Below the pieces are notes generated by a model, which saw only the letters and a list, made by a program, of their open reading frames with translations, was not told where the DNA came from and did no database searches. From the NCBI RefSeq assembly GCF_017908595.1, contig NZ_JAGKTL010000002.1, positions 62,001-126,000 on the forward strand: a DNA stretch of 64,000 nt, written 5' to 3'. Below, one piece after another: positions 22,166-26,948 of the stretch. The position numbers and the translations under genes are program-made. Every line of letters begins with the position of its first letter. The first letter of the stretch is position 1. The stretch is from Rhodothermus bifroesti (GTDB taxonomy: Bacteria > Bacteroidota > Rhodothermia > Rhodothermales > Rhodothermaceae).

Positions 22166-24070
22166 ATGACAACGTCGACGATTCTGGAGCGCTTGCAGAC
22201 ATTGCTACGCAACACGCCCCCCTTCGACCAGCTTGCGCCCGAGTTGTTGCAAGACGTGCTAGCGGATTTGACGCTGGAATATTTTGAGCCTGGCGAAGTG
22301 ATTATCGAACAGGGCAGCACAGCGCACAAAGGGTTATATGTGGTCGAGTCAGGGATGGTCCGCCTGATGGACGTGCCGCGCCAGCGATTGATTGATAAAT
22401 GCGGTGAAGGCGATACCTTTGGCGCGTTTGGCTTAATCAAAGGAGGGGCTGCCCCTTATGAAGCGCGTGCAGTGGCTCCAACAGTATGCATTCGGTTGAG
22501 GCCAGAGCGATTCCTTAAGCTATATGAGCAAAATGCAGCATTTGCCGCGTTTTTCGACAGAGAAATCAAGCACTACCTTACGCGGCAGGACGTAGAGCTG
22601 GACGTAACCGGAGCGCGCCAACTTTTTAGCCGGCGCTTACGGCAGCTTGCCTATCGGCGGCTTGTGAGCTGCGACCCTGAGGCTTCGGCACGCGATGTAG
22701 CACGGCAAATGATCCGGCGTGGAGTAAGTTCCGTGGTGGTGCTACGCAACGGTCGTTTGGCCGGCATTGTAACCGGAGCAGATCTTCGCCGCTTGGTGGC
22801 CCGGCGCGGCTCACCAGAAACGCCGATACGCCGCTTGATGAGTACTCCCGTACATACAATCAAAGCCGATGCCTCGCTTTTCGAAGCCATGATGCAGATG
22901 CTGCTCCATGGGGTACATCGGCTGGTCGTCGTCGATGAAAAAGAACATCCCCTGGGCGTGTTAACTGACCGAGATATTGCCCATTGGCGCGGTCAAGATC
23001 CGCTGGCTACGATTAACCGCATCGAAAGCATTAGCAACGAAGCGGAATTAACCAATATTCGCGAAGAGATTCATGATCAGCTACTGCGTCTCCAACGGCA
23101 GGGGGCAACGCCTGAGGCCTTAGGACGCTTACTTTCCGTCATGAGCGATCGTATTGCCCGGCGGGTTATTCGTTTGGTGGAGCGTGGGCTGCGAGCCCGT
23201 GAAGAAGCCTTGCGGACGGACTTGCCTTGGGCGTGGCTGCGGCTAGGAGGTACAGGGCGACAGGAAATGACCCTGACTACGGCACAGCAAAACGCGCTGG
23301 TTTACGCAAATCCAGGAGAAGCGGCTGAAAAAGCTGAAGCATGGTTTAGCCGCTTGGCCGAGCAAGTCAATAGCGCGCTGGAAAAGTGTGGTTTTCCAAC
23401 AAGCGCTACGATAGCCCGTGAACCGCAGTGGCGGCAGCCGCTCGACCAGTGGCGGCAGACTATCCGTTACTGGATTCTTCAGGCAACGCCTGAAGCGCTG
23501 GCTCAGGCGTTGCCCTTTTTTGACATGCGGCCGCTTTGCGGTGAAGCTGAACTGATGCAGGTGCTCTGGCAAGAAATTGAGGATGCCTTGAACGTACAGG
23601 CCTTGGATCGAGAACGCAATGTGCTCCAAGTGCTTGCGGCCTTGGCGCTCGAGCAGCGCCCTCCCTTAGCGCCTCTAGGACGCTGGGCGACGGAACGAAG
23701 CGGCCCCTATAAAAAACGCATCGACCTTAACGGCCGTGGCATTCGGTTGGTGGTAGATGCTGCCCGAATACTGGCGCTTGATTTGCGCTACTTCCAATCA
23801 ACCAATACCTTCGATCGTCTCAGGGCTGCAGCCGATGCGTTTCCTGAGTTGGAAACTGTGCTGCACGATGCCTTAGAGGCTTATCACTACTTGACTGACG
23901 TACAGCTGGAACATCAGTTGCGCCAGGTTGAGGCTGGCGAACTGCCCAATGATTACCTGGATCCTGAAGCCTTGTCACGAGTGCAGCAAAAGCTGTTGCG
24001 CGAGGCGTTGGAGACTGTAGGCGCTTTGCAACAGGCTTTGGCGCGTCGCTATGGCGTTGAGCTGGCCTAA
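22166..24070 (+). CDS. Cyclic-nucleotide/CBS/DUF294 regulatory protein with degenerate nucleotidyltransferase site
   Basis: 634 residues. The N-terminal cyclic-nucleotide-binding fold (about 17-130) includes FEPGEVIIEQGSTAHKGLYVV and GDTFGAFGLIKGG. A pair of CBS domains (about 170-285) contains SSVVVLRNGRLAGIVTGADL and HRLVVVDEKEHPLGVLTDRD. A DUF294 nucleotidyltransferase-like domain starts near 350, and a helical DUF294 C-terminal domain runs to the end. In the family the active site reads roughly GSxGRxEQTLxTDQDNAL. Here it is GGTGRQEMTLTTAQQNAL (residues 361-378), so both catalytic aspartates are replaced by Ala and Gln. The domain is probably catalytically dead and regulatory (inference). 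The usual exonuclease or symporter partners are not adjacent. Its stop interlocks with that of the convergent GNAT-C39 gene. Confidence 0.9.
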   Translation: MTTSTILERLQTLLRNTPPFDQLAPELLQDVLADLTLEYFEPGEVIIEQGSTAHKGLYVVESGMVRLMDVPRQRLIDKCGEGDTFGAFGLIKGGAAPYEARAVAPTVCIRLRPERFLKLYEQNAAFAAFFDREIKHYLTRQDVELDVTGARQLFSRRLRQLAYRRLVSCDPEASARDVARQMIRRGVSSVVVLRNGRLAGIVTGADLRRLVARRGSPETPIRRLMSTPVHTIKADASLFEAMMQMLLHGVHRLVVVDEKEHPLGVLTDRDIAHWRGQDPLATINRIESISNEAELTNIREEIHDQLLRLQRQGATPEALGRLLSVMSDRIARRVIRLVERGLRAREEALRTDLPWAWLRLGGTGRQEMTLTTAQQNALVYANPGEAAEKAEAWFSRLAEQVNSALEKCGFPTSATIAREPQWRQPLDQWRQTIRYWILQATPEALAQALPFFDMRPLCGEAELMQVLWQEIEDALNVQALDRERNVLQVLAALALEQRPPLAPLGRWATERSGPYKKRIDLNGRGIRLVVDAARILALDLRYFQSTNTFDRLRAAADAFPELETVLHDALEAYHYLTDVQLEHQLRQVEAGELPNDYLDPEALSRVQQKLLREALETVGALQQALARRYGVELA

Positions 24071-25188
24071 CCGTGCCAGGCTCTTAGACGGTCGCCTTGG
24101 TCACTTAAGAGTACCATCATGCGGCTGCCGGCACGGCCGTAACGATTAAGGCGCAAAAAGTCCTGCTCATGAATAGGCACGTGCTGCCCATCGAAGAAGG
24201 GCATCTCCTCGGGAATGTAGGGATCATGGATGTAGATGAAATGTTCATCGTATCCCGTGACCACTACCCAATGGGGGACTTTCTCGCCATAGAGGCGATA
24301 GCCGCTGACGAGCAAAATAGGCACCAAGCCCTCATCAATGGCCATCAAGATGTCCTTGCGATCAAAGAGGGTATAGCGTGGAGGATAACCGGCTGCATGA
24401 AGACGTGCCAGAAAGGATTCGTGCACAAGGCGTAACACTTCTTTTTTTAAGGGTGAGCGTACGGTATCGATAAAGGGAATGCGCACATCGTTGGTCAGCA
24501 CTAGGGCATGCAGGCCATGATGAAGGGCCGCAACGGCCAAGCCTTCGGCACTGCATCCCCCAATGCCACTGGTCATAAAAATCGTGGTTGCCTGGCGCCA
24601 GAGTTCCAGTTCCAGCCCGCGGTTAAGCGACAGTTCTGGGCGAAAGTACTTTAAGGCCATCATCAGACAGGCTGGTCCGCAAGTGAAGTCTAGCGTTTGG
24701 CTGTAGTACGGAATAGGCAGGTAGTTTGGGGGACGTTGATTAGGGACGAGGACGCGCTCGTAGCGACGGGCAGGTGCTCCGTCGGCATAATATGCAGGCA
24801 ATAGGCCTGTAGGCCGAAATCCCAACGCTTCGTAAAGGCGGATGGCTTCGGTATTATCGATGCGAACCTCCAGGCGTAGCACAAGCCGGTTGCGTTCCAG
24901 CGCGGCTTTTTCGGCAGCCTGAACAAGCAAGCGACCAATGCCTTGGCGACGACATGCAGGATCGACAGCCAAAGAGTACAACCGTGCCGCCGCCAGTCCC
25001 TGACGGAAAAGCAGTACCGCACTGCCGCACACGCGGCCTTCTTGCTCGGCCACCAGTACCTGAGCACTTTCACTCCGCAGTAGCCTGCGATAGCTTTGGC
25101 GCGAAAGCTGATCTCCATCGAAGCTGACAGCCTCGAGGTGCACCAGCGCGTCTAGGTCGGCTAACGTAGCTGGGCGAATAGAAATCAT
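24067..25188 (-). CDS. GNAT acetyltransferase fused to a C39-like cysteine peptidase
   Basis: 373 residues, two domains. Residues 1-148 are a GNAT N-acetyltransferase with the acetyl-CoA loop DPACRRQGIGRLLV (77-90) and the RimI-like EAIRLYEALGFRP. Residues 155-373 are a papain-like C39 peptidase: Q164 (oxyanion), C170 in DFTCGPACLMM, H306 in KVPHWVVVTGYD and D322 in YIHDPYIP give a full catalytic set. This fusion is known from RimK-associated operons described in comparative genomics of ATP-grasp amidoligases. It is the last gene of a three-gene minus-strand cassette, overlapping the ATP-grasp stop by four bases (25185-25188). No transmembrane or ABC transporter part is present, so it is not a classical bacteriocin exporter. 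Predicted cytosolic; the substrate is unknown. Confidence 0.88.
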   Translation of the reverse strand: MISIRPATLADLDALVHLEAVSFDGDQLSRQSYRRLLRSESAQVLVAEQEGRVCGSAVLLFRQGLAAARLYSLAVDPACRRQGIGRLLVQAAEKAALERNRLVLRLEVRIDNTEAIRLYEALGFRPTGLLPAYYADGAPARRYERVLVPNQRPPNYLPIPYYSQTLDFTCGPACLMMALKYFRPELSLNRGLELELWRQATTIFMTSGIGGCSAEGLAVAALHHGLHALVLTNDVRIPFIDTVRSPLKKEVLRLVHESFLARLHAAGYPPRYTLFDRKDILMAIDEGLVPILLVSGYRLYGEKVPHWVVVTGYDEHFIYIHDPYIPEEMPFFDGQHVPIHEQDFLRLNRYGRAGSRMMVLLSDQGDRLRAWHG

Positions 25189-26081
25189 GAAGACTTGCCC
25201 TCCAAAAGATGGGAAACAATGCGGGTGTAAACGTCGGGTGCTTGCTGATCTTCCTCCCCCGCATTGATGGTGGGATTATCGTTGACTTCGATGACCACGA
25301 CCTGACCTGTTTCGGTAACCTTGAGATCGACGCCGTAGAGTCCCTGCCCGATGGCTGCTGCGGCCTTGAGCGCTGCTTGGGCTACAGCCTCAGGCAGCGC
25401 TTCTAAAGGAACGCCTTCGACGCGTGCATATGCCCGGCGACCGTCAATAATGGCTTCAATCTTAAAGGTTTTGGCTGGAATGAGATAACGGCAAGCATAC
25501 AGCAACTGGCCTCCCAGCACGCCTACGCGCCAGTCAAACGGGCTAGGGATAAACTGCTGCACAATAAGCCGGTCAGAGTGATAGAAGAAACGCCTCCCGG
25601 TGCGCAAAAACGCTTCAACTGTTTCTACGCGTTCGACATGCGACGAAAAGGCACTCTGCGGTGCTTTGAGCACCAATGGTGCACCCAGCTCGGCAAATAA
25701 CCGATCCGCTTGTGTGGGCGTTAGCATTGGTCGCGTGAGCAAGCGGGTGGGCGGCACGCTTACGCCAGCTTGCTCGAGCCGGCGGTACATGTGCACCTTG
25801 TCGCAGCAAATACGGATCGAACGGCTGTCATCGATGACAGGCTTGCCGTGCAATTCAGCTAGGCGGGCAGCCACATAACTGGCATTTAAGGGGTGGGTAA
25901 GCGCGCGGATAAAGAGTGCGTCGTAGCGCGGAATTTTGTGCAGTTCATTGCGAAACAAAAAATGCACTTCGTGCCCCAGCGCTTCGGCGGCATCACGGTA
26001 GCGGAGCAGCGCGGCATGCTCCTCGCGACGAGCAATCGTATAGCGCTCGACGTAAATCGCCAACCTACCCACGGCGTGCAC
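25185..26081 (-). CDS. RimK-like ATP-grasp peptide/amino-acid ligase
   Basis: 298 residues. ATP-grasp ligases join a carboxylate to an amine through an acyl-phosphate; RimK relatives add amino acids to proteins or peptides. The pre-ATP-grasp region contains HKIPRYDALFIRALTHPLN and GKPVIDDSRSIRICCDKVHM. The ATP-binding core has LGAPLVLKAPQSAFSSHV and LIVQQFIPSPFDWRVGVLGG, and the metal site is VVIEVNDNPTINAGEED near the C-terminus. In proteobacterial homologues this part is fused behind an RLAN domain; here the RLAN domain is a separate upstream gene. No ATG is available near the N-terminus: the start must be GTG, at 26081 (17-base overlap with the RLAN gene) or 26072 (8-base overlap). This suggests re-initiation coupled to the upstream gene. 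The stop overlaps the GNAT-C39 start. Confidence 0.88.
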   Translation of the reverse strand: MHAVGRLAIYVERYTIARREEHAALLRYRDAAEALGHEVHFLFRNELHKIPRYDALFIRALTHPLNASYVAARLAELHGKPVIDDSRSIRICCDKVHMYRRLEQAGVSVPPTRLLTRPMLTPTQADRLFAELGAPLVLKAPQSAFSSHVERVETVEAFLRTGRRFFYHSDRLIVQQFIPSPFDWRVGVLGGQLLYACRYLIPAKTFKIEAIIDGRRAYARVEGVPLEALPEAVAQAALKAAAAIGQGLYGVDLKVTETGQVVVIEVNDNPTINAGEEDQQAPDVYTRIVSHLLEGKSS

Positions 26082-26688
26082 AAAAGGCTTGAAGCCGCTC
26101 TTGCAAAAGCTTTCGGCTTTTGGTTGAAAGCCGGCTGCGCGGCAAGCGTTCTAAAGCACTAAAGAAGGTCTGCCCATCGGGCGTTTCGATCAGACGCAGC
26201 TTGGCTAGCGGTAGATGAAACAGCCCATAGAGCTGCTCGGCCCACCATGCATACGCTGTCTCTGGCGTGCGATCCAGGATAAGCTCCACTTCGATTAGCC
26301 TTGCGTGGACCGGCAGGCGCTGATAGCACAGCAGATATTTACCCTGCCGCGAGAGCTGGCGAGCAGCGATCCAGGCCTCCTGTGGCTCGTAGACCACGCG
26401 AAACGCACGGGCAAAAGGATGCACGCCATAAATCACGGCAGGCGGCTTCACCGTATCGTTGGTCAGATACCATTCGGGAACAGGTAGACCTGCTTGGCGG
26501 ACGCGCTCCAGCGCTACAGGGACGTTGTAGGCGTCGAGCACATCGGCGCAGGAAGGTAGAGCCGTCAGACCGTGCAATTCAACTTCTACAGCGGCGTAAT
26601 ACCCCTCGCTAAGGTATTCGTAGTCGCCGTGGAGCAAGAAAACACCTGCACTACAGGTAAGCTGCAGCGGAAGAGGATCCGAAGGCAT
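26065..26688 (-). CDS. Stand-alone RLAN (RimK-like ATP-grasp N-terminal) domain protein
   Basis: 207 residues. The N-terminal segment DYEYLSEGYYAAVEVELHG (residues 22-40) matches the characteristic YLSEGYY region of the RLAN domain, which normally precedes the ATP-grasp domain in the same polypeptide. The rest (CYQRLPVHARLIEVELILDR, WAEQLYGLFHLPLAKLRLIE) also fits that domain. The protein stops with TAG at 26065, just inside the ATP-grasp gene, so the usual one-chain enzyme is encoded here as two overlapping genes. This gene heads the cassette. Its ATG at 26688 lies 105 bases from a divergent 34-codon ORF. Role: probably recognition or capping of the ligase substrate (inference). Confidence 0.75.
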   Translation of the reverse strand: MPSDPLPLQLTCSAGVFLLHGDYEYLSEGYYAAVEVELHGLTALPSCADVLDAYNVPVALERVRQAGLPVPEWYLTNDTVKPPAVIYGVHPFARAFRVVYEPQEAWIAARQLSRQGKYLLCYQRLPVHARLIEVELILDRTPETAYAWWAEQLYGLFHLPLAKLRLIETPDGQTFFSALERLPRSRLSTKSRKLLQERLQAFCARRG

Positions 26689-26793: not shown

Positions 26794-26898
26794 ATGGCAC
26801 TACTCAGTCGTCGGCGGCGCCGTGAGCTGTTTGTTGCAATAGGCATTTTGCTAGGGTTTGCCGCGCTCATGATTCTGCTGGCCTACCTGATGGGGTAA
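26794..26898 (+). CDS. Possible 34-residue single-span membrane peptide
   Basis: The frame ATG to TAA at 26794-26898 encodes MALLSRRRRR followed by ELFVAIGILLG and FAALMILLAYLMG. It has a strongly basic N-terminus and one hydrophobic helix of about 22 residues, a positive-inside layout typical of small membrane proteins. It sits alone in the gap between the divergent RLAN gene and the convergent sigma-factor gene. Its stop abuts the A-rich side of the sigma terminator. I know no family for it. It could be chance, but the length, charge pattern and position argue for a real small gene. Confidence 0.5.
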   Translation: MALLSRRRRRELFVAIGILLGFAALMILLAYLMG

Positions 26899-26931
26899 AA
26901 AACAAAGGCGGTGCGCTTTGTACGCACCGCC
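26899..26931 (-). terminator. Terminator of the ECF sigma-factor gene (minus strand)
   Basis: GGCGGTGCG and CGCACCGCC form a 9-base-pair stem around a 7-base loop at 26907-26931. Read on the minus strand it is followed by TTTGTTTTTTA, a good T tract. It lies 17 bases beyond the sigma-gene stop. Confidence 0.75.
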
Positions 26932-26948
26932 CTACGATTCGTTCAGCT

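Follow-up and report, generated by a model that had tools for sequence, protein, structure and literature searches.

Fused proteins in which an RLAN domain and a RimK-like ATP-grasp ligase form a single chain have reportedly been described in a genomic context with GNAT-C39 neighbours. Among better known enzymes, RimI acetylates S18, RimK adds residues to S6 and ArgX and LysX act on LysW, while in N-acetylglutaminylglutamine synthetase (TIGR03103) a GNAT and an ATP-grasp domain within one chain make an N-acetylated dipeptide. We know of no dead paralogous partner for RimK, LysX or ArgX. A literature search retrieved no paper on RLAN, on the function of GNAT-C39 proteins or on a dead ATP-grasp of this kind.

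The window (the whole stretch of 64 000 nucleotides from Rhodothermus bifroesti that was analysed) contains a cassette of three minus-strand genes that overlap each other; the coordinates and overlaps given in an earlier note on this DNA were exact on rechecking. The gene for the RLAN protein (26065–26688, ORF 26688–26065, minus strand) encodes 207 amino acids between an ATG start and a TAG stop. It is followed by the gene for an ATP-grasp ligase of the RimK/LysX/ArgX type (25185–26072, minus strand), for which the GTG at 26072 was chosen by alignment as the probable start; at its full extent this ORF runs from 26081 to 25185 and comprises 298 amino acids counted from the first GTG. The GNAT-C39 gene (24067–25188, ORF 25188–24067, minus strand) encodes 373 amino acids and shares four bases, ATGA, with the ligase gene (25185–25188, minus strand); the corresponding two genes likewise touch or overlap in the loci L067 and L068. 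The RLAN and ligase genes overlap by eight bases (26065–26072, minus strand), or by 17 if the first GTG is used. Both values had been proposed, and eight is the likelier because relatives start at the residue that matches the second GTG (window 'VGRLAIYV' versus 'MSRLGIFV').

No promoter-like site for the cassette was found in the scan. A strong terminator-like hairpin (26905–26933, minus strand; 12 pairs and then a T run, a pattern match only) lies behind the upstream ECF sigma gene and sets that gene apart from the cassette. Two genomes of the same genus have an empty site at this position and the cassette is an insertion; its base composition gave no sign of foreign origin. No GCS2 (glutamate-cysteine-ligase-like) gene was found in the window's own genome.

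The middle gene was confirmed as encoding a RimK-like ATP-grasp ligase. The RimK, Dala_Dala_lig_C and ATP-grasp_3 profiles all scored above their cut-offs (PF08443, 28 bits; cut-off 21) and the catalytic residues K95, K139, D252, E265 and N267 are kept in all homologues from loci with separate RLAN and ligase genes (split loci) that cover those positions. Profile comparison placed this active chain in the ArgX/RimK family; with TIGR00768 (RimK family alpha-L-glutamate ligase) it scored 69.7 bits, below the cut-off of 143.4.

The third protein consists of a GNAT part (approximately residues 1–150; PF00583, 70.3 bits) and a C39-like cysteine peptidase part, DUF3335 (Peptidase_C39-like; residues 159–361; PF11814, 241.8 bits). 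All 23 homologues share C170 and H306, and 22 of them also have an aspartate at the position of D322; the profiles and the conservation of the catalytic Cys-His-Asp residues thus agree on the GNAT-C39 fusion that had been read from the sequence. Its identity to the GNAT-C39 proteins of loci with a fused RLAN-ligase gene reaches 48%. A borrowing of the window protein from such fused-type loci was considered and is unsupported, the window protein grouping, weakly (82/79), with those of L067 and L068. Against TIGR03103 (cut-off 569 bits) the ATP-grasp chain scored 19.7 bits and the GNAT-C39 protein 38.1 bits, both below the level required for that synthetase.

The exclusivity of the partner genes, a feature that the earlier note did not have, is more informative on chemistry than the gene split. 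Across 80 loci, a GNAT was present in 37 and a GCS2 in 37, with neither in six and both in none, and at least five switches between GNAT and GCS2 were counted on the ligase tree. This mutual exclusion suggests that GNAT and GCS2 are two interchangeable N-acylation steps and, therefore, that a small N-acylated peptide is the probable product. A concrete prediction follows, namely that the initial N-acylation is carried out by either GNAT or GCS2, with the same ligase downstream of both.

The same parts could also be assembled into a protein-modifying system, in which a target protein would be N-terminally acetylated by the GNAT and extended by the ATP-grasp pair at its C-terminus or on a side chain, with the peptidase removing the tag. 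We regard this as unlikely, albeit deserving of serious attention. The active chain is nearest to ArgX, LysX and RimK, enzymes that work on proteins, and the GNAT resembles RimI (TIGR01575, S18 N-acetyltransferase; 76.7 bits, below the cut-off of 86.4); the peptidase could be an eraser, as RimB is for RimK (PMC12239564). However, half of the loci replace the GNAT by GCS2, an enzyme family with free amino acids as substrates, and no recurrent gene for a target protein was found among the clustered neighbours of the split loci.

The 207-residue protein was placed in the RLAN family by the profile PF14401 (33.1 bits; cut-off 25), as the earlier note had claimed, and this profile matched 24 of 24 split homologues. 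A description of RLAN as the N-terminal part of a RimK-like ATP-grasp chain does not fit, since in the window (stop at 26065) and in 23 relatives it is a separate ORF. The AF2 model (pLDDT 93, pTM 0.89) predicts a complete ATP-grasp fold for this protein, with an order of helices and strands that agrees with both ATP-grasp lobes and a resemblance to ArgX, LysX and RimK across the whole length. A Foldseek search of the PDB with this model gave 373 matches at E ≤ 1e-3 (best value 3.4e-8), and each of the best 50 of these is an ATP-grasp-fold protein, mostly a ligase. Comparison with VIA gave Z = 12.7 for ArgX (3vpc; 196 of 207 residues aligned) and Z = 12.0 for RimK (7qys); models that lack a clear counterpart typically reach 7–8.

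The residues that define an active enzyme, the ATP-binding lysine and the Mg2+ ligands (D/E/N), appear to be missing from this predicted fold. With equivalent positions taken from the sequence register and not from superposed coordinates, the position of the ATP lysine is Y, F or D in 24 of 24 split RLANs, and their C-lobe strands show no conserved acid that could serve as a Mg ligand. By sequence alone the homology of RLAN to ATP-grasp is weak: profile–profile comparison with hhalign related split RLAN to fused RLAN (3.7e-16) and to the fused-type ATP-grasp (P = 7e-4 across 96 collinear columns), and its value for split RLAN against the split ligase (P = 0.008) is to be read beside that of a C39 control (0.005 over 28 columns). 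This weakness, together with the fact that a sequence search found no solved RLAN structure, is what would favour the RLAN protein being an alpha/beta domain of separate origin that serves the ligase in substrate binding, its ATP-grasp-like shape a product of chance or model bias. The confidence of the model, the Z score against ArgX, the near-complete alignment, the uniform fold of the listed matches and the fit to both lobes make that explanation very improbable. For the RLAN protein, a pseudo-ATP-grasp subunit is the best reading, in preference to a small N-terminal domain, because the whole modelled chain has the ATP-grasp fold without the catalytic residues and because approximately 70 residues that are extra relative to fused RLANs are kept; a hitherto uncharacterized domain thereby gains a testable identity as a dead ATP-grasp partner.

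In the Foldseek search the RLAN model matched the graspetide ligase PsnB best, and C39 peptidases of other systems cut leader peptides. Both points are consistent with a secreted antimicrobial or signal peptide, i.e. a short ribosomal precursor that the C39-like peptidase cleaves and that the ligase and the GNAT modify in a graspetide-like manner. This is nevertheless very improbable, as no recurrent small precursor ORF (of at least 60 amino acids) was found among the clustered neighbours of the split loci, the GNAT-C39 protein showed no transporter domain in a profile search and GCS2 is ill-suited to a ribosomal precursor.

A separate RLAN gene overlapping the ligase gene was found in all 23 of the nearest ligase relatives (Calditrichota, Zixibacteria and 21 archaeal loci); the overlap is 4–26 bases in 22 of them and in the remaining one depends on the choice of start. 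In the ligase tree the split loci form a single clade (SH-aLRT 100) with 58 fused loci outside it. The split type was met once in 394 in its own phylum, in the window genome, and all other RLAN genes of the phylum sample are long fused frames. That these are all fused, and that the two frames of the window overlap by more than 80 bases, might point to an ordinary fused gene having recently been broken up by fission or a frameshift, or to a sequencing error behind the TAG at 26065, which had been named as a possible objection; fused relatives do exist, but the 23 split relatives, their monophyly and their different RLAN subtype refute this explanation, which we consider practically discounted. 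Of the earlier proposal of a split-gene variant, the genuine two-chain form therefore stands, whereas a fused enzyme simply cut in two does not. Split RLAN is a distinct subtype, and the ATP-binding lobe seems to be kept in split RLANs and lost in fused ones.

For fused RLAN, the fold is assigned from the order of helices and strands. In the predicted structure of a fused natural homologue (pTM 0.64) the domains are confident but the placement of RLAN on the ligase is uncertain, and a fold search with this model covers the ATP-grasp half only. Natural fusions of the types GNAT-RLAN-ATP-grasp and RLAN-ATP-grasp-GCS2 (L109, 952 amino acids) also occur. The two-gene form is an old, mainly archaeal lineage that spans archaea and bacteria, and it is the fused bacterial type that looks derived.

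Taken together, we somewhat favour a two-chain amide ligase in which an active RimK/ArgX-like subunit and a dead paralogous ATP-grasp, RLAN, are co-translated and make an N-acetylated small product. The two chains would be translated together from their overlapping genes and would form an obligate complex, the dead chain taking the place of one protomer of RimK-like oligomers and holding or orienting the substrate, while the active chain would couple a carboxylate, activated as acyl phosphate, to an amine. The GNAT would cap the amino group of one substrate with acetyl, the job performed in the other half of the loci by GCS2 with gamma-glutamyl, and the C39-like peptidase, sharing its substrate with the acetylase, would serve to trim that compound or recycle it. 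Such a pathway would yield, independently of the ribosome, a small peptide or amino-acid amide bearing an N-acetyl group. A heterodimer of this kind, with one ATP-grasp chain active and the other dead, would be an unusual design. On a broader scale, and with the balance of probability even, the RLAN family may comprise pseudo-ATP-grasps descended from a duplicated RimK/ArgX-like ligase, with the split lineage found here and in archaea representing the ancestral pair of full dead and active chains and the fused bacterial lineage having lost the dead ATP-binding lobe; with their mutually exclusive GNAT or GCS2, these systems would form a broad class of non-ribosomal N-acyl-peptide synthetases common to bacteria and archaea.

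Among known systems, N-acetylglutaminylglutamine synthetase resembles the cassette, as interpreted here, in the cooperation of GNAT and ATP-grasp and differs in having neither RLAN nor a C39 peptidase. The RimK, LysX and ArgX ligases (3vpb, 7qyr and 5zk6) have the ATP-grasp fold and the catalytic residues in common with the active chain, and their known substrates are S6 or LysW. The proteobacterial fused RLAN-RimK-like systems (PF14401, PF11814) have the same families, RLAN, ATP-grasp and GNAT-C39, and the same adjacency as the window; that fused RLAN-ATP-grasp genes adjoin GNAT-C39 genes in proteobacteria, as the earlier note had stated, was seen in the locus survey. There, GNAT-C39 is found upstream of a single polypeptide with a shrunken RLAN that seems to lack the ATP-binding lobe, whereas the window has two overlapping genes, a full-length RLAN predicted to be a pseudo-ATP-grasp and GNAT-C39 downstream. 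The archaeal split RLAN/ATP-grasp pairs (Methanomicrobiales and Bathyarchaeota) have overlapping genes like those of the window and an ATP-grasp chain that is 41–53% identical, but carry GCS2, often with a CxxCxxCC protein, where the window has GNAT-C39.

The three genes of the cassette lie on the minus strand. The first (26688-26065) encodes an RLAN protein of 207 residues (PF14401, 33.1 bits against a cut-off of 25), the second (26081-25185) an ATP-grasp ligase of 298 residues counted from the first GTG (RimK, Dala_Dala_lig_C and ATP-grasp_3 profiles above cut-off) and the third (25188-24067) a GNAT domain and a C39-like peptidase in one chain of 373 residues (DUF3335, 241.8 bits). The profile searches agree with the families assigned in the earlier note; no specific function was attained for the cassette proteins with NCBIfam profiles. 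The peptidase residues C170, H306 and D322, previously described as intact, were conserved among 23 homologues (C170 and H306 invariant, D322 an aspartate in 22). The overlap of the RLAN and ligase genes had been put at 17 or 8 bases; because the ligases of relatives begin in the alignment at the residue matching the second GTG (26072), 8 bases is the likelier value and 17 the less likely.

Sequencing error at the TAG at 26065 had to be weighed, since all other sampled RLAN genes of the phylum (RLAN was present in 35 of 296 genomes) sit in long fused frames (480-730 residues versus 209 in the Rhodothermus bifroesti cassette); in another genome of the order, G012, the ligase part continues in a second frame. 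This two-frame match (G012:C1:2376562-2377409) may represent a frameshift, an error or decay. A ligase alignment was used to scan 84,980 species genomes. A separate RLAN-like gene was found at 23/23 of the nearest ligase loci (identity 41-54%; one each from Calditrichota, Zixibacteria and Thermoplasmata, the remainder from Methanomicrobiales and Bathyarchaeota), and at 22 of them it shares 4-26 bases with the ligase gene; the remaining 57 loci (identity 35-43%) were almost all fused. Sequencing error is thereby excluded, and the split-gene form proposed in the earlier note is real. In the ligase tree the split sequences form one side of a branch (SH-aLRT 100), and the cassette ligase is one of 13 in a starred group that also takes in Calditrichota, Zixibacteria and Methanomicrobiales; the root is a distant RimK outgroup, so the tree does not fix the order of the split and fused lineages.

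The model of the cassette RLAN (mean pLDDT 93, pTM 0.89, built with 24 split sequences) gave 373 Foldseek matches at E ≤ 1e-3 (best 3.4e-8), and the best 50 of these all had the ATP-grasp fold; in the VIA comparison it matched ArgX (3vpc) with Z 12.7 at 4.1 Å over 196/207 residues. Sequence support for this kinship is weak but collinear: the split RLAN profile aligned with fused-type ligases at P 7e-4 and with split ligases at P 0.008, controls being mostly >0.2 with a C39 control at 0.005 over a short stretch. Split RLANs carry about 70 extra residues mid-chain compared with fused RLANs, and in a model of the fused homologue L092 the helix and strand order of the RLAN part is that of the same fold minus the ATP-binding lobe. 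Judged by sequence register, the position of the ATP-binding lysine (VLK strand) appears to be Y, F or D in 24/24 split RLANs, with apparently no conserved acid in any strand bearing Mg ligands in ligases; the partner ligase keeps the lysine and all Mg ligands. The whole-length model match, the apparently missing lysine and acids and the lobe-less order in L092 together make a dead ATP-grasp the best reading of RLAN, with the complete form in split-lineage proteins and a shrunken form in fused ones. If both are homologous by duplication, the complete form would be ancestral, since the lobe must have existed first.

In two same-genus genomes the CBS/DUF294 protein gene (77% identical) adjoins the ECF sigma factor gene (95%) with about 250 bases between, and relative to these the cassette is an insertion. 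RLAN was absent from the other four same-genus genomes searched, and the split type occurred only in this genome among 394 of the phylum; acquisition by this lineage is more probable than a long series of losses. Nothing stood out in the base composition of the cassette. The plus-strand cNMP-binding/CBS/DUF294 gene (22166-24070) converges with the last cassette gene, its stop lying in a 4-base overlap of the two 3' ends; it has a second paralogue at G000:C3:192404 in the same genome. Beside the sigma factor gene, the gap holds an ORF for a 34-residue membrane-type peptide (26794-26898, plus strand; MALLSRRRRRELFVAIGILLGFAALMILLAYLMG), which predates the cassette because a close copy is present in two same-genus genomes.

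Among 80 ligase loci, GNAT (with or without fused C39) lay beside 37, GCS2 beside 37, both beside 0 and neither beside 6, several of the last ending at a contig edge. The Fisher p of 8e-17 exaggerates the strength of this exclusivity, because relatives are not independent; at least five switches are needed on the ligase tree. GCS2 was absent from the R. bifroesti genome in an own-genome search, in agreement with its GNAT type. A separate C39-like peptidase gene accompanied 17 of the 20 GCS2-bearing fused loci of bacteria. GNAT is also found naturally fused to RLAN-ATP-grasp in one chain; a Gemmatimonadetes gene (L109:3826-6681) encodes RLAN, ATP-grasp and GCS2 in 952 residues. A gene for a CxxCxxCC (PF03692) metal-chelating protein adjoins GCS2 in 11 archaeal split loci (downstream of the ligase in L071, L072, L074 and L082, divergent in L080 and L084), and the ligase pair of several Bathyarchaeota loci (L080:5966-8679; L083, L085, L088) has two genes resembling deoxyhypusine synthase next to it.

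On the simplest reading, a single amide ligase has its substrate N-acylated in equivalent ways by GNAT (acetyl) or GCS2 (gamma-glutamyl), and the cysteine peptidase acts on the same compound. GNAT would acetylate an amine; the active ATP-grasp chain, from its residues and fold, would form an acyl phosphate and then an amide bond. The dead RLAN chain may pair with it as a pseudo-protomer and aid substrate binding, as conserved gene coupling and natural fusion suggest, and the C39-like domain, its catalytic residues in place, would hydrolyse precursor or product. No description of RLAN as an ATP-grasp, of the split clade or of the GNAT/GCS2 exclusivity was found in the searchable literature; a 2009 comparative-genomics study, which may cover GCS2 links or split forms, reportedly described RLAN-ATP-grasp fusions adjoining GNAT-C39.
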